Shown here piece by piece: positions 5,169 to 45,217 of a stretch of 61,006 nucleotides of DNA; positions within the stretch are counted from its first letter, which is position 1; every line of letters starts with the position of its first letter. The DNA comes from Ignavibacteriota bacterium (GTDB lineage Bacteria > Bacteroidota > Ignavibacteria > UBA10030 > SZUA-254): NCBI GenBank assembly GCA_025358305.1, contig JANYJZ010000038.1, positions 1-61,006 of the forward strand, read 5' to 3'. Made by a program: the position numbers and the translations under genes. The notes under the pieces are model-generated. The model saw nothing but the letters and a program-made list of their open reading frames with translations, had not been told where the DNA came from and did not search any database.

Positions 5169-5723
5169 TTAGCGCAGCTCCGGGGCCGGATTGATCCGGA
5201 GTGTCCGGACGCATGACTGCGCCCGGCGGAAGATGTCGAGGTAGGGGCTGCGCGTGTCCGCGCTGTCGACGAGCCTACGCAGTGCCTCTTCCGACGCGCT
5301 GCTCCGGATCGTGACGGTGTAGCGCACCTCGAGATACCCGGGCGGATTGCCGGAGACGCCGAGGAGCGCGCCGTCGTCGAAGTCGGCTTGAATCTCGACC
5401 TCGATCGCGTCGAACGGCACGGACGTCTTCGCAGCTTCCAGCGCGTACCCTTGTGCGAGACAGGAGCCGAGGGCCGCGCGCCCGTAGACGCCCGGCGTCG
5501 GGGCAGAGGCGTCACCGCCCAAGCCGGCCGGCATGTCGGCGGAAAGTTTCCACGCGCCTTCGGTGATCTCCGCCGCGAACCCCCGAACGAGACGCGTCCG
5601 GGAGACGCCCGTCCCCAGGCCGATCGACGGCCGCAGGGCGATCGCCTTGACGATGCGGTCGAACGCTTCCTTGATCTTCCCTGCCGCCGGTACGTACGGC
5701 GTACGCTGGTCGTTGCCGTTCAT
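5169..5723 (-). CDS. OsmC-family peroxiredoxin-like protein
   Basis: A 184-residue OsmC/Ohr-fold protein. The segment GRAALGSCLAQGYALEAAK carries the conserved cysteine (in GSCLAQ) at the start of the long central helix, and FDAIEVEIQADFDD is the following strand region. OsmC proteins reduce organic hydroperoxides through two cysteines; the second candidate is in RAQSCVRTLR near the C-terminus. The ATG at 5723 is preferred to the overlapping TTG at 5729. It follows the NmrA gene with no real gap and is followed directly by the methyltransferase. Family assignment is good; peroxidase activity is inferred. Confidence 0.82.
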   Translation of the reverse strand: MNGNDQRTPYVPAAGKIKEAFDRIVKAIALRPSIGLGTGVSRTRLVRGFAAEITEGAWKLSADMPAGLGGDASAPTPGVYGRAALGSCLAQGYALEAAKTSVPFDAIEVEIQADFDDGALLGVSGNPPGYLEVRYTVTIRSSASEEALRRLVDSADTRSPYLDIFRRAQSCVRTLRINPAPELR

Positions 5724-5725
5724 GG

Positions 5726-6673
5726 TCAACCCAGAGGGATGCGGTTCTTGTTCGCGGCGAGCCAGGTGTCGAACGTTTGGAGCGCAGGGTTAAGGGACCG
5801 GGAGAATGCGACGTCCCGGATGCGGCAGTACTTTTCCTGAAAATCGCGCTTGTACTGGAACATGTTGCCGACGTCGTCCGCTCCCGGGAACCCGAGGGCC
5901 CGGAACGCGTCCGGGGAGATGTCGTTGTGGCGGATGTCCTTCCCGAGCGCCGTGGAGAGCGAGGCCGCCATCGCGGCGCCGGTGAGGTGCTCGCCGGCGA
6001 TGCCGACGTGTTTGCCGATGAATTCCGCGCCGGGTTTGAACAGGCCGTAGGTGCATTTGCCGATGTCTTCGGAGGCTATGCCCGGGAGCTTCTTGTCGCC
6101 CATGGGGAGGGTGAAAGAGTAGCTGCCGTCGGGGTTCTTTGTCGGACCACTGCCGAAGAAGATGAGATTCTCCCAGTAGAATGACGTATAGAGGAACGTC
6201 GTTGGGACCCCTTCCTCGGTGAAGAAGCGGTTCGCCTCGGCCTTGCCGTCGAAGTGCGCGACCTTGTATTTGCCGTGGATCGTCGGCATGCGGTTGTCGG
6301 CGAGCGGAACGTCGAGGCGCGTGTCCTCGAACGTCGACCAGACGGCGTGCCGGATGCCGGCCGCTTTCGCCGCGACCGCCATGTTGCGCGCCTCGGCCAT
6401 CTCCTTCTCCGCGGAATAATGGTCCCAGAAGAAGGTGACGCAGAAGGCGCCGTAGGCGCCGTTGAACGCGCGCTTCAGGCTTTCCGCGTCGTCGACGTCG
6501 GCGGCAACGACTTGCGCGCCGGCGGCCTTGAGGGCCTTCGCCTTTTCGGAGTTCGGGTCGCGCGTGATCGCCCGCGGCGTGAAGTCGCCCGAGGGGTCTT
6601 GGAGGATCGCCCGGACAAGTCCGCCGCCCTGGGCGCCCGTGGCCCCCAGGACCGCGATGATCTTCTTCGTCAT
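5726..6673 (-). CDS. NmrA/HSCARG-family NAD(P)-binding protein
   Basis: A 315-residue atypical short-chain dehydrogenase of the NmrA/HSCARG type. It starts with the dinucleotide-binding loop VLGATGAQGGGLV (residues about 8-20), then ITRDP, in which the Arg is the usual NADPH selector, and shows WSTFEDT and HGKYKVAHFDGKAE where the usual Tyr-x3-Lys would be, KYKVAHFD keeping only part of it. Such proteins sense the NADPH/NADP ratio or act as weak reductases. The ATG at 6673 has AAGGAAG upstream. It heads the NmrA-OsmC-methyltransferase operon. Confidence 0.88.
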   Translation of the reverse strand: MTKKIIAVLGATGAQGGGLVRAILQDPSGDFTPRAITRDPNSEKAKALKAAGAQVVAADVDDAESLKRAFNGAYGAFCVTFFWDHYSAEKEMAEARNMAVAAKAAGIRHAVWSTFEDTRLDVPLADNRMPTIHGKYKVAHFDGKAEANRFFTEEGVPTTFLYTSFYWENLIFFGSGPTKNPDGSYSFTLPMGDKKLPGIASEDIGKCTYGLFKPGAEFIGKHVGIAGEHLTGAAMAASLSTALGKDIRHNDISPDAFRALGFPGADDVGNMFQYKRDFQEKYCRIRDVAFSRSLNPALQTFDTWLAANKNRIPLG

Positions 6674-26202: not shown

Positions 26203-27311
26203 CGGCCGTCCCGAGCGAACCGGGCGTAGTGCTTCTTGAGGAGCGCCTGGAAGTGGTGGACACCTTCTTCCATCTCCACGGAGAACCGCCCCTTATCGTA
26301 TGCGTCCGAGGCGAGCCCCAGCTGGACCCGCTCGCAGATCTCGATGTCCTCGTGCTGGATCGCGTCGCTGTACCGGAGGTCCTCGTCGATGATGGCAAAC
26401 GGCGTCTCCTCGTCGTAATAATAGTCGAAGATGACCGTCGTCCGGTCGTGGCCCATCGGCATGACGAGGTTCGTCTGGAGCCGTCCGGGGAGGATGTTGA
26501 GCATGAAATTCGGGAAGACGCAGTAGTAGAATGCCTCGCCCCCGGACGCGCCGTAGAAGTTCTCTTTGCCGGTGAAGGGGCTCGTCTGGAGGGAGTAGTG
26601 CTCGAACGCTTCGGTGACGTACGCTTGGGTGTCGAGGAGGTTGCAGAGCTCCGGATGGACAAGGGGGAGGTGGTACCCCTCGAGGTAGTTGTCGACGTAG
26701 ACTTTCCAGTTGCACCGGACATTATAGGTGACCCTTCGGGAAAACCGCTTCGTGCCGAGCGTGACGGGCGCGATCCGTTCGCAGATCCCTCGCATGACGG
26801 CTGCCAGGGGGAGCTCCATTGCCGCCTTTTCGGAAAGATTGACGAAGAGCATCTCCTCCCAGACGGCGACCGTGACCGGCACGAGCCCGAAATCCTTCTT
26901 GTCGAAGAGCTCCGCGCGGTCGAACTTCGGCACGCCGCGCAAACTCCCGTCGAGGAGGTAGGTCCAGCCGTGATACTTGCACTGGAGCACGTTGCAGGTC
27001 CCCTGCTCCTCGAGCGCGATCGGCCCGCCGCGGTGCCGGCAGACGTTGTAGAATCCGCGCAGGACGCCGTCCTTGCCGCGGACGATGAGCACGGGGTTCC
27101 CGGCGACCATTGCCGTCACGAACTGCCCGGGCGAGCGTACGATCGCCGCGGTGCCGGCATACTGCCACGTCCGGGCGAAGATCCCTTCCCGGTCGGCCTC
27201 GTGCATCGCGGGGTCGGTGTACCAGCTCGACGGGATCGTCTCGGACCGCTCGATCGGGGAGACCGAGAGGTTCTCGTCGGTCCAGTCGGGGAGCTGTGCT
27301 TTTGGGCGCAC
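26199..27311 (-). CDS. Rieske non-heme iron oxygenase, alpha subunit
   Basis: A 370-residue ring-hydroxylating or demethylating oxygenase. The Rieske cluster is CRHRGG (Cys91, His93) and CKYHGW (Cys111, His114). The mononuclear iron site is NWKVYVDNYLEGYHLPLVHPEL (His214, His219), with a later Asp in QHEDIEICERVQLGL as third ligand. That last motif is common in quaternary-amine enzymes such as glycine betaine or carnitine oxygenases. The GTG start at 27311 shares a base with the previous stop codon. No dedicated reductase is visible nearby. The family is certain; a quaternary-amine substrate is an inference. Confidence 0.93.
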   Translation of the reverse strand: MRPKAQLPDWTDENLSVSPIERSETIPSSWYTDPAMHEADREGIFARTWQYAGTAAIVRSPGQFVTAMVAGNPVLIVRGKDGVLRGFYNVCRHRGGPIALEEQGTCNVLQCKYHGWTYLLDGSLRGVPKFDRAELFDKKDFGLVPVTVAVWEEMLFVNLSEKAAMELPLAAVMRGICERIAPVTLGTKRFSRRVTYNVRCNWKVYVDNYLEGYHLPLVHPELCNLLDTQAYVTEAFEHYSLQTSPFTGKENFYGASGGEAFYYCVFPNFMLNILPGRLQTNLVMPMGHDRTTVIFDYYYDEETPFAIIDEDLRYSDAIQHEDIEICERVQLGLASDAYDKGRFSVEMEEGVHHFQALLKKHYARFARDGR

Positions 27312-37846: not shown

Positions 37847-40800
37847 CTACTTTACGGGAGCGACCTCGGACTCAACGTCCACAAGTGAGGGGATCCCGGT
37901 GCGCGACGGGGCCTTCGCATGCGCCTCCTTGGAGAAGAACGTATACATCGCCGGAATGACAAAGAGGGTCAGCACGAGGGAGAAGAACAGTCCTCCGATG
38001 ACGACGATCCCCATCGAGACGCGGCTCTTTGCGCCGCCGCCGAGGGCGAGGGCGATCGGGAGGGCGCCGAGCATCGTCGCGATGCTCGTCATAAGTATCG
38101 GCCGGAACCTCGCCGCCGCGGCGACCTGCACGGCGTCGAGGAGCTTCAAACCGCGCTCCTTCTGCTGGTTCGCGAACTCCACGATCAGGATGCCGTTCTT
38201 CGTCACGAGACCCACGAGCATGATGATGCCGATCTCGCTGAAGATGTTCAACGTCTTGCCGAAGATCCATAGAGAGAGCAGGGCGCCGGCGAGGGCAAGC
38301 GGCACGGTGAGCATGATCGTGAACGGGTCGATGAAGCTTTCAAACTGCGCCGCAAGCACGAGGTAGATGAGGGCGAGCGCGAGGATGAATGCGAATGCGA
38401 TGTTCGAGGAGCTTTCCGCGTAGTCCCGCGACGGGCCGCTCAGGGCGGTCGTGAATGACTCGTCGAGGACCTTTTTCGCTATACGGTCCATCTCGTCGAT
38501 GCCGTCCCCGATGGTCTTCCCCGGAGCGAGTCCGGCGCTCACCGTCGCCGCCTTGAGACGGTTGAAGTGGAACAGCTGCGGCGGTGCGCTCTGCTCCTTC
38601 AGCGTCACGAGGTTGTCGAGTTGGATGAGCTGGCCTTTCCCATTTCGCACGTAGAGGGAGGTGAGATCGAGCGGTTCGTCGCGATCCTTGCGGTCCACCT
38701 GCCCGATGACCTGGTACTGGAAGCCGTTCATCTCGAAGTACGAGAACCGCTGTCCGCTGAAGGCAAGTTGAAGCGTCTGGGCGATGTCGATCGTGGACAC
38801 GCCGAGGCTCCGGACGCGGTCGCGGTTGATCGAGAGATCGATCTGCGGCTTGTTGAACTTCAAATTGACGTCCGAACCCTGGAAGATCTTGCTCTGGTTG
38901 ACCTCCTCCATGAACGTTGGGAGGAGACTCCGGAACTTCTCAAAATTCTGGTTCTGCAGAACGTACTGGACCGGGAACCCCCCTCTCGCGCCGCCCCCGG
39001 AGGCGGAGATCGTCTGTTCCTGTAGGACGAACGTCCGCGCCTCCGTCATCGTGCGCGTGTTTGCCGCAATGTACTCGGCGATCTCCTGCTGGGAGCGCTT
39101 TCGGTCCGAGTGGTCGGTGAGCATCATCCGCGCGGAACCGGTATTCACCGCCCCGGCGCCGGAAAAGCCGGGAGCTGTCACCGTGAGGAAGAGATGCGCG
39201 TCAGGGATCGAATCGGCCACAAAGCTGGCGAGGCGATCCATGAACGCATCGGTGTAGCTGTAGGATGCGCCCTCCGGCGCCGTGACGGAGACCCGCAGGA
39301 AGTTCCTGTCGTCGAGGGGAGCGAGCTCCGACTGGAGCGTCAGCCCGAGGACGACGATGATGACGAGGGATGCGGCGATGATCGCGCTTGCCACCCAGCG
39401 GTGCTGCATGAACCGCGCCAGCATGGATTCATACCAGGAGTTCATGGCGATAAAGATGGGCTCGGTGCGCTCGTAGAACCGGCTGTGCTTCTGCTTCTTC
39501 CGAATGAGCCGGGCGTTGAGCATCGGAGTGAGCGACAGCGAGACGAACGCGGAGATGAGCACTGCGCCGGCGATCACGACGCCGAACTCGCGGAACAATC
39601 GTCCCACGAACCCCTGGAGGAAGATGACGGGAAGAAAGACCGCAGCGAGTGTGATCGACGTCGAGACGACGGCAAAGAAGATCTCCCTGGAACCTGCGAA
39701 CGCCGCCTCCATGGGACTCATTCCCTCTTCCACCTTCTTGAAGATATTCTCCGTCACGACGATGCCGTCGTCGACGACAAGCCCCGTGGCGAGGACGATC
39801 GCCAGGAGCGTCAGGACATTAATGGAAAAGTCCATGAGATACATAATGAAGAACGCCCCGATAAGGGAGACGGGGATGTCGATGAGCGGCCGAAACGCGA
39901 TGAGCCAGTCCCGGAAAAAGAGGAAGATGATGCAAATGACGAGAAGGATGGCGATAATGATCGTCTCCTGGACCTCGGTGATGGACTGCGTGATGAACCT
40001 TGTGTTGTCGAGTGCGATATCGAGCTTGAGGTCGGCCGGGAGGTCCTTCCTGATCTGGTCGATCCGTTTGTAGAATTCAGTGGCGATCTCCACGTAGTTG
40101 CTTCCGGGCTGCGGGATGAGCGCGACGCCGACCATCGGCGTTCCGCTGATCTTGAGGATGGTCTCCTCGTTCTCCGGGCCGAGATTCGCGAAGCCAATGT
40201 CGCTGATCCTCACAATCTTCGTTGCGTCGGACTTCACGATGAGGTTGTTGAATTCCTCGACCGTTCTCAGGCGCCCTTTCGTGTTCACGATAAGTTCGGT
40301 CTGGTTGCCGGAGATCTTGCCGGACGGGAGTTCGACGTTCTCCCGGGTGAGTGCGTTTCTGATGTCGAGCGGCGTCAGGCCGTACGCGGCGAGCTTCGCC
40401 GGGTCCATCCAAATGCGCATGGCGTAGCGCTTCTGTCCCCAGATCTGCGTCGCACTCACGCCGTTGATGGTCTGGAGGTTCTGCGCGATGACGTTCTCGG
40501 CGTAGTCGCTCAATTCGAGGAGGTTCCTCGTATCGCTCTGCACCGTGAGAGAGATGATCGCGTCGGAGTTCGCGTCGCTCTTGGTGACGACCGGGGGTGC
40601 GTCGATGTCCTGGGGGAGCGTACGGGTCGCGCCCGACACCTTGTCCCGGACGTCGTTCGCGGCGGCCTCGAGGTTCGCATCGAGGTTAAACTCAACGGTA
40701 ATGTTGCTTACGCCTTGGCTGCTGCTGGAAGAGATGTTGCGGACGCCGGAGATGCCGTTGATCGCCTTTTCGAGCGGCTCGGTGATCTGCGACTCCATGA

Positions 40801-40972
40801 CATCGGCGTTCGCGCCGGAGTAGCTCGTTCGGACGGTGATGATGGGCGGATCGATCGCGGGATATTCCCGCACGCCGAGGAAGTGAAAGCTGATGACGCC
40901 GAAGAGCACGATCACGATCGACATGACGATCGCGAGGACGGGGCGCTTGATGCTGATGGAGGCGAGACTCAT
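37847..40972 (-). CDS. RND multidrug efflux permease (HAE1 type)
   Basis: A 1041-residue AcrB-like inner-membrane pump. It opens with SLASISIKRPVLAIVMSIV and has the paired Asp of the proton relay in TGLVVDDGIVVTENI, and the Lys of the second half in VTKNGILIVEFANQ. Two large periplasmic loops and twelve helices are as in the hydrophobe/amphiphile efflux-1 family. It uses proton entry to expel drugs or lipophilic compounds. Its ATG overlaps the adaptor stop (ATGA). No outer-membrane TolC gene is in this operon. Confidence 0.96.
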   Translation of the reverse strand: MSLASISIKRPVLAIVMSIVIVLFGVISFHFLGVREYPAIDPPIITVRTSYSGANADVMESQITEPLEKAINGISGVRNISSSSSQGVSNITVEFNLDANLEAAANDVRDKVSGATRTLPQDIDAPPVVTKSDANSDAIISLTVQSDTRNLLELSDYAENVIAQNLQTINGVSATQIWGQKRYAMRIWMDPAKLAAYGLTPLDIRNALTRENVELPSGKISGNQTELIVNTKGRLRTVEEFNNLIVKSDATKIVRISDIGFANLGPENEETILKISGTPMVGVALIPQPGSNYVEIATEFYKRIDQIRKDLPADLKLDIALDNTRFITQSITEVQETIIIAILLVICIIFLFFRDWLIAFRPLIDIPVSLIGAFFIMYLMDFSINVLTLLAIVLATGLVVDDGIVVTENIFKKVEEGMSPMEAAFAGSREIFFAVVSTSITLAAVFLPVIFLQGFVGRLFREFGVVIAGAVLISAFVSLSLTPMLNARLIRKKQKHSRFYERTEPIFIAMNSWYESMLARFMQHRWVASAIIAASLVIIVVLGLTLQSELAPLDDRNFLRVSVTAPEGASYSYTDAFMDRLASFVADSIPDAHLFLTVTAPGFSGAGAVNTGSARMMLTDHSDRKRSQQEIAEYIAANTRTMTEARTFVLQEQTISASGGGARGGFPVQYVLQNQNFEKFRSLLPTFMEEVNQSKIFQGSDVNLKFNKPQIDLSINRDRVRSLGVSTIDIAQTLQLAFSGQRFSYFEMNGFQYQVIGQVDRKDRDEPLDLTSLYVRNGKGQLIQLDNLVTLKEQSAPPQLFHFNRLKAATVSAGLAPGKTIGDGIDEMDRIAKKVLDESFTTALSGPSRDYAESSSNIAFAFILALALIYLVLAAQFESFIDPFTIMLTVPLALAGALLSLWIFGKTLNIFSEIGIIMLVGLVTKNGILIVEFANQQKERGLKLLDAVQVAAAARFRPILMTSIATMLGALPIALALGGGAKSRVSMGIVVIGGLFFSLVLTLFVIPAMYTFFSKEAHAKAPSRTGIPSLVDVESEVAPVK

Positions 40973-42018
40973 GAGCCTGCCGGCGGGTTCTCCTGCACGG
41001 CAACGTCGACCTGGAGGCCGGGGCGCATCTGCATAAGGCCGGTGGTGATGACGGTGTCTCCGGCGGCGAGTCCGGTGAGGATCTGCACGGAGGATGCGGT
41101 CCGGATCCCGATCGTGACCGGGACGGACACGATAACGCCGTTCTTCCGGACGAAAATGGTCTGGCCTTTGAGCACAGGGACGATCGCCTGCGTCGGAATG
41201 AGGAGCGCGTTCGGGATCGCCTTCAATTGCAGTTCGATCTGGACGTACGCCCCGGGAAAGACCGTTTCAGATCTGTTGTCGCACATCGCCCGAAGCTGGA
41301 GCGTGCGGGTGGCCGCGTCGATCTGCGGTTCGACGGCGAAGACCTTGCCGGAGAACTGAAGGCGCGCTTCGTCGCTCCGGAACTGCACGGGGTCGCCGAC
41401 GCTCACCTGCCCGGCGTACTTTTCCGGGATCGCAAAGTCCACTTTCAGCGGATTGAGCTTCTGGACCGACGCGATGCGCGTCGTCGGCGTGACGTAGCTT
41501 CCCTCGCTCACGTAGCGCAATCCGATGACCCCTTCGAATGGGGCCCGGATCTCCCGCTTTCGGATGGAGGCGAGGAGGTTGTCGCGGTCGGCTTTGTACG
41601 AATTCAGCTGGTTGAGCGCGATGTCGTAGTCCTCTTTGCTGATGCCGCTGATATCGTACAAATGCTTCTGTCGGGACTCCTGCTCGGAGGTAAGGGAGAT
41701 CTGCAACTCGATCTTTTTGAGCTGCGCCTGCAGGTCGTCGTCATTGATCTTGACCAAAAGGTCGTTGCGGTGCACGTGCGCGCCTTCCCGGATCGCAAGT
41801 GAATCGATGCGGCCGGCCGCTTCGGCGACGAGGTCCACCGATTCCGATGCGAGGACCGTACCGGATGACCGCACGACATTCTCCAGCGGCTGCGGCTGGG
41901 CAACGATGCCTTTGACGAGGAGCGCCGAAGAAGGCTTCGGAGCGGCCCCGCCGCTCTTGGACCCGCAACCAGCGAATATCCCCGCGCAAAGACAGAAGAT
42001 CAAAAAGGAGAGACGCAT
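40969..42018 (-). CDS. RND periplasmic adaptor lipoprotein
   Basis: A 349-residue membrane-fusion protein with a lipobox (GIFAGCGSK, Cys18). The lipoyl halves are VDLVAEAAGRIDSLAIREGAHV and IRAPFEGVIGLRYVSEGSYV, separated by a short coiled coil (about 95-150). The beta-barrel and membrane-proximal domains follow, ending VTTGLMQMRPG-like. It links the RND pump to a TolC-type channel encoded elsewhere. It is co-translated with the pump. Confidence 0.94.
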   Translation of the reverse strand: MRLSFLIFCLCAGIFAGCGSKSGGAAPKPSSALLVKGIVAQPQPLENVVRSSGTVLASESVDLVAEAAGRIDSLAIREGAHVHRNDLLVKINDDDLQAQLKKIELQISLTSEQESRQKHLYDISGISKEDYDIALNQLNSYKADRDNLLASIRKREIRAPFEGVIGLRYVSEGSYVTPTTRIASVQKLNPLKVDFAIPEKYAGQVSVGDPVQFRSDEARLQFSGKVFAVEPQIDAATRTLQLRAMCDNRSETVFPGAYVQIELQLKAIPNALLIPTQAIVPVLKGQTIFVRKNGVIVSVPVTIGIRTASSVQILTGLAAGDTVITTGLMQMRPGLQVDVAVQENPPAGS

Positions 42019-42616: not shown

Positions 42617-43030
42617 ATGAAGAGAAAAGAGTTCCTCTCCACTCTCGGGTTCACTGCCGCTGGTGTTATCTGCGCCCAGTGTCTTAGCGGTTGCTCGATG
42701 CCTACCGATTTTGCCGGTCCGACCAATGTCGATTTTACCCTCGACCTCACATCCGCCACGTACCACGCTCTGACAGTTCCCGGAGGTTCCATCTATAAGG
42801 GCGGCGTCGTCGTCGCTCATACGAACGGCGGGGCATATGTCGCGGTGAGCCAGGCGTGTACGCACGCCGGCGTCACGATCGATTTTGATGCCGCAGGCAA
42901 CCGGTTCCACTGCTCCAGCCATGGGTCGAATTTTGCGCTCGATGGTTCGGTCATCAACGGGCCGGCCGGCACTCCTCTCTCGAGATACAACACGAGTCTC
43001 AGTGGCACGTCGCTCCGGGTCTATTCCTAG
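42617..43030 (+). CDS. Exported Rieske [2Fe-2S] lipoprotein
   Basis: A 137-residue small Rieske protein. The N-terminus KRKEFLSTLG resembles a twin-arginine signal with Lys-Arg in place of Arg-Arg, followed by a hydrophobic stretch and a lipobox (CLSGCS). The cluster ligands are in CTHAGV and HCSSHGSNF, the standard CxH...CxxH. Such proteins carry electrons at about +100 to +300 mV in the periplasm. It begins the cassette with the four-helix membrane protein and YceI. The Tat route is inferred from the cofactor and the signal. Confidence 0.9.
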   Translation: MKRKEFLSTLGFTAAGVICAQCLSGCSMPTDFAGPTNVDFTLDLTSATYHALTVPGGSIYKGGVVVAHTNGGAYVAVSQACTHAGVTIDFDAAGNRFHCSSHGSNFALDGSVINGPAGTPLSRYNTSLSGTSLRVYS

Positions 43031-43167
43031 ATGCGGAACAACCTCGGTGTGCGATGCCGGTGCGTCTGCCGGATCCGGACGAGCTCGTTCCCCGGCCAGA
43101 GCATCCGATCACGGATCGGTCTCGGATATGGCCGATCTCCCTCAATGATACCGCAGAAAGGTCCGTT

Positions 43168-43836
43168 ATGAAGTCGGTTCTCCTTCTTGTCTCGCTCGTC
43201 GTCATGTTCTCCTTCACACTCCGCGCGCAGGTCGCGCACATCGATAGTACGGCGGCTGCACCCGGCCTCTCAGCGAACCCGGCGGATTCAGGCGCAACGC
43301 TCGATAAGCCCGTCGTGCGAAAACTCCTGCCGGACAATATGAGCCTCATGGAACGCACGATGTGGGGGGAATCGGGGGTGCTCAGGGGGATCGGGATCGC
43401 TTCCACGCTGACGCCGGAGGTACGCAAGAGCGAGCTTCAGCTCCGGAGAACGATGCTGACGCTCCATCAGATCAGCGGTTTCGTGACGCTCGGACTGATG
43501 GGGACGGCCGTGTACTACGGCCAACAGCTCATCAACGGCAAGAACACAAAGGACGCGCATAAGACCTTCGTTGCCGCAGCCATTGTTTCGTACGGCTGCA
43601 CCGCCGCATTGTCCATCTTCTCGCCTCCGCCCCTCATCCGCCGGGATGAAGCGAGTACGACGACACTTCATAAAACGCTCGCCTGGGTCCACTTTGCGGG
43701 AATGATCGTCACGCCGATCCTCGGATCGATGATCGGGCGGCACGCCGACTATTCGCAGCGCGCTCGAACACACCAAGTGGCCGCGTACATCACCACCGGC
43801 ACGCTTGCGCTCTCCATGATCGTCATGACCTTCTGA
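43168..43836 (+). CDS. Four-helix histidine-rich membrane protein
   Basis: A 222-residue protein. After a signal-like helix (1-20) and a periplasmic stretch come four hydrophobic helices, each opening with a His: LHQISG (His100), AHKTFV (His131), LHKTLAWVHFAG (His168, His175) and THQVAAY (His202). Such paired His in four helices are the usual axial ligands in cytochrome b561-type diheme proteins, though I cannot prove heme binding. The ATG at 43168 has AGAAAGG upstream. In E. coli a b561 protein (YceJ) is next to YceI, which is the case here too. Confidence 0.6.
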   Translation: MKSVLLLVSLVVMFSFTLRAQVAHIDSTAAAPGLSANPADSGATLDKPVVRKLLPDNMSLMERTMWGESGVLRGIGIASTLTPEVRKSELQLRRTMLTLHQISGFVTLGLMGTAVYYGQQLINGKNTKDAHKTFVAAAIVSYGCTAALSIFSPPPLIRRDEASTTTLHKTLAWVHFAGMIVTPILGSMIGRHADYSQRARTHQVAAYITTGTLALSMIVMTF

Positions 43837-43843
43837 GGCTGAC

Positions 43844-44401
43844 ATGCATAAAACACTTTTCCTCACGGTTCTCACTTTCGCCGCGCTCGTCTCATGGACG
43901 GCCGTCGACGCCCAAAACACCGTGTCGATCCCGCGGTGCGATAGTGCGAGCATCACGTACCGGATCGTCCACCCGCTTCATGTCGTCGAAGCGACGAGCA
44001 CGGAGCTCGCGTTCCGATTGACGGTCGATACGCTCAACCGGCAGATCAAGAACGTCTCCGCCATCGTCGATGTCATGACGTTCAACAGCGGTAATTCGAA
44101 CAGGGATTCTCATGCCATGGAGGTGATCGACGCGCTGACCTATCCGGACGTCCGGTTCAGCTCGACGGAGATCATCCAGCATCATGACACGCTCTCGGTG
44201 AGCGGTCCCCTGGCATTTCACGGCGTGACAAAGCCCGTCGTGATCAATGCGATCGGTCGCTGGGACGGGATGAAACTCGCCGTCGAGGGGACGTTCGTGC
44301 TTTCCCTCACCGACTTCAAGATCGAACGTCCTTCGATGCTCATGATGCCGGTGGAGGATACGCTTCGTTTCGCTTTCCACACGGCATTCCACGTGAAATA
44401 G
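43844..44401 (+). CDS. YceI-family periplasmic lipid/quinone-binding protein
   Basis: A 185-residue protein of the YceI family with a signal peptide (1-23). The lipocalin-like beta-barrel is recognised by VEATSTELAFRLTVD, the conserved ..FNSGNSNRDSHAMEVIDA (NRD/S-HM-type segment), YPDVRFSSTEI and GPLAFHGVTKPVVINA, and ends with LTDFKIERPSMLMM. The family binds isoprenoid quinones or polyprenyl lipids. It starts seven bases after the stop of the four-helix protein, so the two are co-expressed. Confidence 0.9.
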   Translation: MHKTLFLTVLTFAALVSWTAVDAQNTVSIPRCDSASITYRIVHPLHVVEATSTELAFRLTVDTLNRQIKNVSAIVDVMTFNSGNSNRDSHAMEVIDALTYPDVRFSSTEIIQHHDTLSVSGPLAFHGVTKPVVINAIGRWDGMKLAVEGTFVLSLTDFKIERPSMLMMPVEDTLRFAFHTAFHVK

Positions 44402-44404
44402 GCG

Positions 44405-45217
44405 ATGAGACGCGTTCTCATACTCTCGATCCTGTGTGCGGCGTCCGCGTGCCGCCTCACGGCGGCGTGGCAGGATCGGAGCGGTGCGCTTGATACTTCC
44501 TCCAATTCTTCCTACCTTCATCCCATGACGACAGAGCTCAAACCACCCTACATCCGGAAGGCCGGCGTCCGCGGCAAGATCACGATCTGGATCGTGGATG
44601 GCACATATGTCCGGACGCATCTTGATGAAGAATTCACCAATTACGGACAGGGTCTCGTCTTCGACTGCATACCGAAGAACGAGTTCTGGCTCGACAAGGA
44701 GGCGAAGGAGGACGAACAGAAATTCTTCGTCGATCATCTCCTGGTGGAGCACCGGCTCATGCTGAAGGGGATGGCGTACGACGACGCGCTCGAGGCGGCC
44801 GACCGCGCCGAGATGGCGGAGCGCAAACGGTCCGGCGACATCGAAAAACTCACTGGACGCGGCGGCCTCCCTGACCCGGCGAAAGTGCACGTGACGCTCT
44901 GGAAAATGCTAACCTCCGGTGTCTCCGTCTGGATCGTCGACGGCAGGCTCGTCCGAAGCGTGTTCGACGATGACTTCACCGAGGGCGGACATGACCACGT
45001 CTACGAGTTCGTCCCGCAGAAGGAGGTCTGGATCGACAACGACCTCGAGGAGGCGGAACGGCCGTATGTCCTCTTCCACGAGCTCCACGAACGAAATCTT
45101 ATGGCGAAGGGCTGGACCTACGATAAGGCCCACGAAGATTCCAGCAGGCTCGAATATCACTACCGCCACACCCCGAACGAGCTCCATGATGCCCTGGTGA
45201 GCGAAGGCTGGGAGTAA
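44405..45217 (+). CDS. Duplicated HELHE-domain protein, putative metal enzyme
   Basis: A 270-residue protein made of two homologous halves. Repeat 1 (residues 59-140) has IWIVDGTYVRTHLDEEFTN, FWLDKE, then DHLLVEHRLMLKGMAYDDA. Repeat 2 (173-253) has VWIVDGRLVRSVFDDDFTE, VWIDND, then FHELHERNLMAKGWTYDKAH. Only repeat 2 keeps His225-Glu226-x-His228-Glu229 plus His243; repeat 1 keeps His111 and Glu115. Similar single-domain proteins occur in phages and bacteria, function unknown. ATG 44405 gives a signal-like start (LILSILCAASAC); ATG 44525, directly before the first repeat, is the alternative. Metal binding is inferred. Confidence 0.65.
   Translation: MRRVLILSILCAASACRLTAAWQDRSGALDTSSNSSYLHPMTTELKPPYIRKAGVRGKITIWIVDGTYVRTHLDEEFTNYGQGLVFDCIPKNEFWLDKEAKEDEQKFFVDHLLVEHRLMLKGMAYDDALEAADRAEMAERKRSGDIEKLTGRGGLPDPAKVHVTLWKMLTSGVSVWIVDGRLVRSVFDDDFTEGGHDHVYEFVPQKEVWIDNDLEEAERPYVLFHELHERNLMAKGWTYDKAHEDSSRLEYHYRHTPNELHDALVSEGWE

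Follow-up and report, generated by a model that had tools for sequence, protein, structure and literature searches.

The role of YceI proteins is unsettled, and the described system closest to the locus reported here is LcoA-BcnA, whose Escherichia counterpart we take to be yceJ-yceI and whose membrane partner, like cytochromes of the LcoA/YceJ/CybB type in general, presumably belongs to PF01292. LcoA-BcnA pairs a cytochrome b561 with a YceI lipocalin in defense against lipid peroxyl radicals; according to excerpts of that study, lipid peroxidation is higher in mutants, and LcoA is presumed by the authors to return ubiquinone bound to the YceI protein to its reduced form (Naguib et al. 2022, PMC9113575). 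A YceI-like domain is also coupled to one-electron carriers in the YceI-cytochrome proteins Cbp2D and Cbp2E of Cellvibrio, of which Cbp2D, as excerpts of the source describe it, joins this domain to c-type cytochrome domains (PMC8981238). Here, we examine positions 42,617–45,217 of a 61,006-nucleotide stretch from an Ignavibacteriota bacterium (GCA_025358305.1, contig JANYJZ010000038.1; this whole stretch is called the window below), where genes for a Rieske protein, a membrane protein that we call MEM, and a YceI protein follow one another. These three genes form one conserved cassette in distantly related bacteria.

The cassette shares with LcoA-BcnA a membrane b561-type gene that lies directly upstream of YceI and is kept with it as a pair, with MEM being b561-type purely by resemblance (PMC9113575, in excerpt). 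It differs in that MEM stays below the PF01292 cut-off and in the addition of a Rieske gene in 31/59 cassettes. The words Rieske and Bacteroid- are absent from the main text of the LcoA-BcnA paper (PMC9113575). By this comparison, the cassette appears to be an independent counterpart of LcoA-BcnA or a deeply diverged form of it, built on another b561-like family and with a Rieske protein added. Cbp2D and Cbp2E, unlike the cassette, are multidomain proteins with carbohydrate-binding modules, Cbp2D carrying two c-type domains, and excerpts of the source give them no b561 (PMC8981238). Searches limited to open-licence papers found no description of a Rieske-MEM-YceI cassette. As far as these searches reach, the MEM family and its Rieske link are so far undescribed, so an earlier note on this DNA, which had seen here its best candidate for an undescribed system, was right about these two elements and not about the b561-YceI pairing, which the LcoA-BcnA paper had already published (PMC9113575). 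A b561-like protein that lies outside the LcoA profile family and is tied to YceI in another bacterial branch strengthens the view of YceI lipids as redox partners of membrane cytochromes. The cassette also names a third component, the Rieske protein, in about half of cases, together with residues to test (H100, H168, H175, and H202 of MEM).

A conserved Rieske-MEM-YceI cassette

Protein searches recovered MEM relatives in 25/296 genomes of the phylum, with the window's genome counted, and a profile built from 22 MEM relatives recovered the same 25; within the class, MEM is present in 26/245 genomes. Two peptide patterns located 42 MEM loci in a one-genome-per-species collection of 84,980 species, under record titles that include Ignavibacteriae, Melioribacter, Bacteroidetes, Chlorobiales, Thermochlorobacter, Kapabacteria, and Fibrobacteria. 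The 68 MEM loci, including the window, were reduced to 59 by grouping at 95% MEM identity (nine rows dropped). In one round of neighborhood analysis, open reading frames (ORFs) were called by length alone, and six MEM loci missed there were recovered by hidden Markov models (HMMs), which were built from sequences that they then re-find.

In 56 of the 59 non-redundant loci, the next gene downstream of MEM on its strand is YceI; L052, L063, and L100 are the exceptions (L and G numbers denote loci and genomes). Because the window's genome holds just four YceI genes in 3.2 Mb, an adjacency kept in 56/59 loci is not due to chance. The Rieske gene lies upstream of MEM in 25 cassettes and after YceI in 6; its position shifts while the linkage is kept, which we take to argue for selection. 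Further loci come from the 25 class genomes with MEM other than that of the window, of which three were already covered, 20 were added, and G377 and G380 were left out. The 20 added loci include YceI in 19 and Rieske in 10. Eight of them are 100% identical in MEM to earlier loci, and the other 12, which were screened against the earlier loci and not against one another, are unmatched at 95% and carry YceI in 12/12 and Rieske in 6/12.

The earlier note had reported four plus-strand genes with short gaps between them, and all four ORFs are indeed confirmed within 42617–45217, at spacings of 3–137 bp. MEM, counted from its ATG at 43168, starts 137 bp after the Rieske gene, YceI starts 7 bp after MEM, and the fourth ORF starts 3 bp after YceI (at 44405) or 123 bp after it (at the ATG at 44525). 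Recurrence of the neighborhood, which the note had proposed as a check, holds for the three-gene set and fails for all four genes, which occur together in 0/67 other loci and 0/20 further class loci, some of the loci compared being short contigs or ±2.5 kb stretches.

MEM and its partner proteins

The AlphaFold2 model of MEM, based on an alignment of 43 sequences, has a mean predicted local distance difference test (pLDDT) score of 83.6 and places helices at residues 2–21, 60–66, 71–74, 83–122, 128–151, 162–187, and 195–221. A histidine stands near the head of each long helix (H100, H131, H168, and H202), as the earlier note had described, although it had missed a fifth, H175 in helix 3, and the pattern is weakest in helix 2. 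Conservation of the membrane histidines in homologs, which the note had made a test of its idea, is borne out: H100, H168, and H175 are invariant across the 59 loci, H202 is kept in 58, its sole loss falling in L052, which also has no YceI, and H131, the least conserved of the five, is kept in 52, with Lys in six loci and Gln in one. If the N-terminus is a signal peptide, H100 and H168 would be close to the periplasmic side of the membrane, and H131 and H202 would be close to its cytoplasmic side.

The MEM paralog of L052, a second copy in G249, has no YceI or Rieske gene nearby and is followed by an 810-aa ORF; with both H131 and H202 lost, it looks like a repurposed copy. In L104, two tandem MEM matches (5247–5780 and 5908–6516) precede YceI, and in the tree the YceI of this record falls with those of Fibrobacterota.

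No Pfam or NCBIfam profile recognizes window MEM at its cut-off. PF01292 is matched at E ≤ 0.1 by 12/43 aligned MEM relatives (best E 0.0022), and its cut-off is reached neither by window MEM nor by any of eight chosen MEM proteins (best of the eight 27.0). When 296 genomes were scanned with PF03188 (cytochrome b561), 17 places scored at E ≤ 0.01, and MEM accounts for the best nine and for ten overall. Four of the eight chosen proteins pass the PF03188 cut-off of 23, two score 22.9 and 22.6, and two give no match; the eight were picked by hand, and six had already matched in the 296-genome scan. These matches fall on helices 1–2 and, in the best case, cover positions 66–130 of the 137-position model. 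Neither PF00033 nor PF13631 matches window MEM (PF00033 none at E ≤ 1). We call MEM b561-like and not a member of PF03188.

Members of the CYB561/Dcytb family (PF03188) have six transmembrane helices. MEM resembles them in having four helices with one histidine near each head, and some MEM proteins pass the family's profile cut-off; it differs in that its model shows four long helices and a signal-like helix instead of six, in the extra invariant H175, and in its genomic link to YceI and Rieske. A Foldseek search of the PDB with the MEM model returned nothing at E ≤ 0.001, and PDB sequence searches gave a best E of 0.17, with unrelated names, for MEM and nothing at E ≤ 10 for the profile. By VIA, designed helical bundles rank first, some reaching Z 13; designed diheme bundles score Z 10.6–10.7 and Dcytb (5zle) Z 9.0, with a root mean square deviation of 4.2 over 131 aligned positions at 12% identity. 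Because other designed bundles outscore Dcytb, the fold comparison is compatible with this kinship and does not identify MEM.

The window Rieske protein matches PF00355 at 43.4 bits (cut-off 20.3), with C81, H83, C99, and H102 as its ligands, and its N-terminus carries an RKEFL motif and a lipobox-like LSGC with C26. Across the 31 cassette Rieske proteins, window included, the CxH...CxxH ligands are kept in all, the motif [RK][RK]x[FLIMA][LIV] occurs within the first 45 residues in 29 (strict RR in 15), and a lipobox-like motif occurs in 28. By the motifs for twin-arginine translocation (Tat) and for the lipobox, the cassette Rieske proteins are predicted to be exported by Tat and lipid-anchored. 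High-potential Rieske proteins have a disulfide made by two extra cysteines. Both cysteines are present in 11/31 cassette proteins and neither in 20/31, and lineages probably differ in the redox potential of their Rieske protein.

The best PDB sequence relatives of the window Rieske are b6f-type Rieske subunits, as would be expected if the gene encoded an ordinary bc-complex subunit located here by chance, and the cassette is like bc1/b6f complexes in that a Rieske gene adjoins the gene of a membrane b-type candidate. However, MEM lacks PF00033 and PF13631, the cassette Rieske is lipoprotein-like by motif, and the 20 proteins without the disulfide cysteines depart further from that model. Of seven Rieske matches in the window's genome, four others each have a PF00033 cytochrome b gene next to them, whereas the window Rieske has no such neighbor and is therefore probably not a bc-complex subunit. 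As its relatives also recur beside MEM-YceI, we consider an ordinary subunit placed here by chance extremely improbable. A different relation to these complexes is conceivable, in which a b561-type bundle and a mobile Rieske lipoprotein would make up a minimal complex for electron transfer between quinol and periplasm, a second evolutionary solution to joining Rieske and cytochrome b that would charge YceI-borne quinone instead of cytochrome c; we rate this as distinctly unlikely.

The window Rieske was also searched in 19 genomes; a linked copy is present in five of them and missing in 14. Two of the 14 hold a nearly full-length relative elsewhere (G150 at 45% and G190 at 43% identity), and 11 have weaker matches, with best identities of 29–38% and some nearly full length. 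Further Rieske-related sequences were observed in the window's own genome. On the minus strand of the window, positions 26916–27167 encode another Rieske domain within a 397-codon open frame, and at L121 (G000 C33, 190000–203000), a single run holds several multi-CxxCH proteins together with PF01292-type matches and a pair of Rieske and cytochrome b genes.

The cassette YceI matches PF04264 at 61.6–61.7 bits (cut-off 23.7), with the other three YceI proteins of the genome scoring higher, at 159–174 bits. Its nearest solved structures are E. coli YceI (1y0g, E 5.4e-10) and PA0423 (7bwl). In a tree of 59 rows, cassette YceI proteins stand apart from the other three of the genome with support of 100/100, these three being the only outgroup. 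None of the three genes lies near a PF01292 match; they are on separate contigs or, on C25, some 90 kb from each other.

A proposed envelope redox function and its alternatives

We propose that the cassette is an envelope redox module in which MEM, as a b561-type transmembrane electron conduit, passes electrons to a YceI-borne quinone and the Rieske lipoprotein is an optional relay, an interpretation that we consider about an even bet. Gene linkage, ligands, export motifs, and resemblance to the b561 superfamily are its observed basis; the heme, the quinone, the topology, the direction of electrons, and the physiological role are what we infer from it. MEM would be a compact b561-type heme protein, with H100 and H168 holding one heme near the periplasmic face. 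In most members, H131 and H202 would hold another heme toward the cytoplasmic face, and H175, further into helix 3, would be an additional invariant site. MEM may deliver electrons to the periplasm, drawing them from the quinol pool or from the cytoplasmic side; there the acceptor would be a quinone or another isoprenoid lipid inside the YceI barrel. Kept reduced, this lipid could scavenge lipid radicals or pass electrons on to other acceptors in the envelope. The Rieske protein, probably Tat-exported and lipid-anchored, would serve as an optional one-electron relay linking MEM with YceI or with other periplasmic partners. The earlier note had likewise imagined a periplasmic electron-transfer or quinone-handling unit; the conserved envelope unit, the conserved membrane histidines, and a YceI of the lipid/quinone-binding type favor that idea, and the fourth protein, which it had included, drops out.

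Several observations weigh against the proposal. Window MEM has no PF03188 match at E ≤ 1 and reaches 17.8 bits with PF01292 (cut-off 30.1), PF03188 is matched at E ≤ 0.1 by just 6/43 MEM relatives, and its cut-off is passed in 2/296 genomes, both passing places being MEM. Since two of four true bc-type cytochromes b reach 24.5 and 24.7 bits to PF01292, sub-threshold scores to this profile are uninformative, and the VIA score of Z 9 to Dcytb is within the range of unrelated helical bundles. H131 is missing in 7/59 loci, so a second heme is not universal. Rieske is missing from 28/59 cassettes, some on short contigs, which makes such absences upper bounds, and G435, which has a cassette without Rieske, holds no Rieske relative at E ≤ 1e-5. 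As the Rieske gene is often missing from the cassette, and no relative is found in G435 at this threshold, MEM and YceI are the core of the cassette. A link to oxygen via COX1 was also considered and set aside as uninformative, since COX1 occurs in 25/25 MEM genomes and in 283/296 genomes overall.

The genes next to the cassette bear on two other functions; only direct same-strand neighbors were counted, and samples of each cluster were tested by Pfam. MEM could act like Dcytb as a periplasmic ferric or cofactor reductase, with Rieske as a relay and neighboring TonB-dependent receptors bringing in the metal chelate. Among the 31 Rieske-bearing loci, eight have a TonB-receptor cluster ORF as neighbor, in two arrangements; two sample receptors are Pfam-confirmed, ORFs that by appearance are sigma-factor-like and FecR-like lie further upstream in some loci, and Dcytb is among the structural neighbors of MEM by VIA. 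We nonetheless regard a reductase as unlikely: the other 23 loci have no such neighbor, no member of the receptor cluster lies beside the 28 Rieske-less loci (L041 alone has a candidate, a 1076-aa ORF that is receptor-like by appearance), TonB receptors abound in this phylum, and YceI, the most constant partner, is of the lipid-binding type.

Alternatively, the cassette could deliver electrons outward, with secreted oxidoreductases or c-type cytochromes of the cell surface as recipients, much as has been suggested for Cbp2D and lytic polysaccharide monooxygenases. A single-CxxCH ORF is the neighbor in 6/31 Rieske-bearing loci, type IX sorting tails end all three CxxCH neighbors scanned, and Cbp2D joins YceI-like and c-type domains (PMC8981238, in excerpt). 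With no CxxCH neighbor in 25/31 Rieske-bearing and 28/28 Rieske-less loci, and with Cbp2D and Cbp2E suggested, in excerpts of a further paper, to do more than electron transfer (PMC12542752), outward delivery also seems unlikely to us. An ORF of a DUF4835 cluster is the neighbor in 6/31 Rieske-bearing loci. We read the TonB, CxxCH, and DUF4835 neighbors as hints to acceptors and not as shared parts of the cassette.

Redox catalysis might be dispensed with altogether if MEM loaded a quinone or isoprenoid into YceI and its histidines bound something else. Isoprenoids are indeed held in YceI structures (PMC9113575, in excerpt), but such trafficking leaves unexplained both the Rieske gene in 31/59 cassettes, in two orders, and the b561 resemblance of MEM, and we judge it highly unlikely.

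The fourth ORF and the surroundings of the cassette

Features of the locus, with window coordinates
Feature	Position	Strand	Basis or remark
Rieske [2Fe-2S] protein, 137 aa, predicted exported lipoprotein	42617..43030	+	PF00355, ligand and export motifs
MEM, 222 aa, signal-like N-terminal helix and four transmembrane-length helices, b561-like	43168..43836	+	model, homologs
Codon of MEM His100, helix 1	43465..43467	+	invariant 59/59
Codon of MEM His131, helix 2	43558..43560	+	52/59
Stretch with MEM His168 and His175, helix 3	43669..43692	+	each invariant 59/59
Codon of MEM His202, helix 4	43771..43773	+	58/59
YceI lipocalin-like protein, 185 aa, cassette-type	43844..44401	+	PF04264, nearest structures, synteny, tree
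Fourth ORF, for a protein with a HELHE repeat; may start internally at 44525	44405..45217	+	judged outside cassette

The fourth ORF, which the earlier note had proposed as a new member of the unit encoding a duplicated putative metal protein, was rejected as part of the cassette: no other locus examined has all four genes together, and HELHE is unconserved. The duplication itself stands, with 33% identity between the two copies. The metal motif does not, as the last Glu is the sole HELHE residue invariant across six domain copies, so that the protein has no HExxH-type site. No Pfam or NCBIfam family matches at cut-off, the single-domain model (pLDDT 79.9) has no PDB match at E ≤ 0.001, and a viral-contig scan gave no confirmed relative. 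The family shares the pattern WIVDG...NEIWID...HEL[HN]ER... (window 44525–45214; L053, L054, L055–L062, L085, and L087). Read from 44405, the ORF includes a signal-like stretch; by eye, relatives have a signal-like start in L053, L057, L058, L085, and L087 and none in L054.

Relatives of the fourth protein occur in 7/296 phylum genomes, and in G078, G243, and G082 they lie on a different contig from MEM, the MEM contig of G082 being only 3.2 kb long. The gene is absent from 25 MEM neighborhoods of the phylum and from within about 2.5 kb of MEM in the 20 further class loci. It lies near MEM in 2/42 species-collection loci, L085 and L087, about 0.5 and 1.8 kb upstream and in the same gene order, which is a weak link. 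Most likely, the fourth gene is a bystander.

A promoter scan found two promoter-like sites, both on the minus strand (shuffle mean 1.3), and no terminator-like site. In L085, which has no Rieske gene, YceI is followed by the gene of a DUF362 protein, whose N-terminus is of the RRDFLK type, and by that of a protein containing several Fer4 domains, and the same ORF clusters occur in L087; the L085 pair is a possible alternative electron donor. An aldo/keto reductase-cluster gene stands upstream of MEM-YceI in L079 and L092 (Pfam-tested in L092) and nearby on the opposite strand in L078. Its likening to the aldehyde reductase PsrA was dropped and not used as evidence, PsrA being, in excerpts of the source, a YqhD ortholog that is unlinked in the published system (PMC9113575). 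Upstream of the cassette in the window, on the minus strand and thus divergent from it, ORFs of 1041 and 349 aa (37847–42018) are efflux-pump-like, by appearance a resistance-nodulation-division (RND) protein and an adaptor, and the same two ORF clusters also lie near MEM in L067 and L074.

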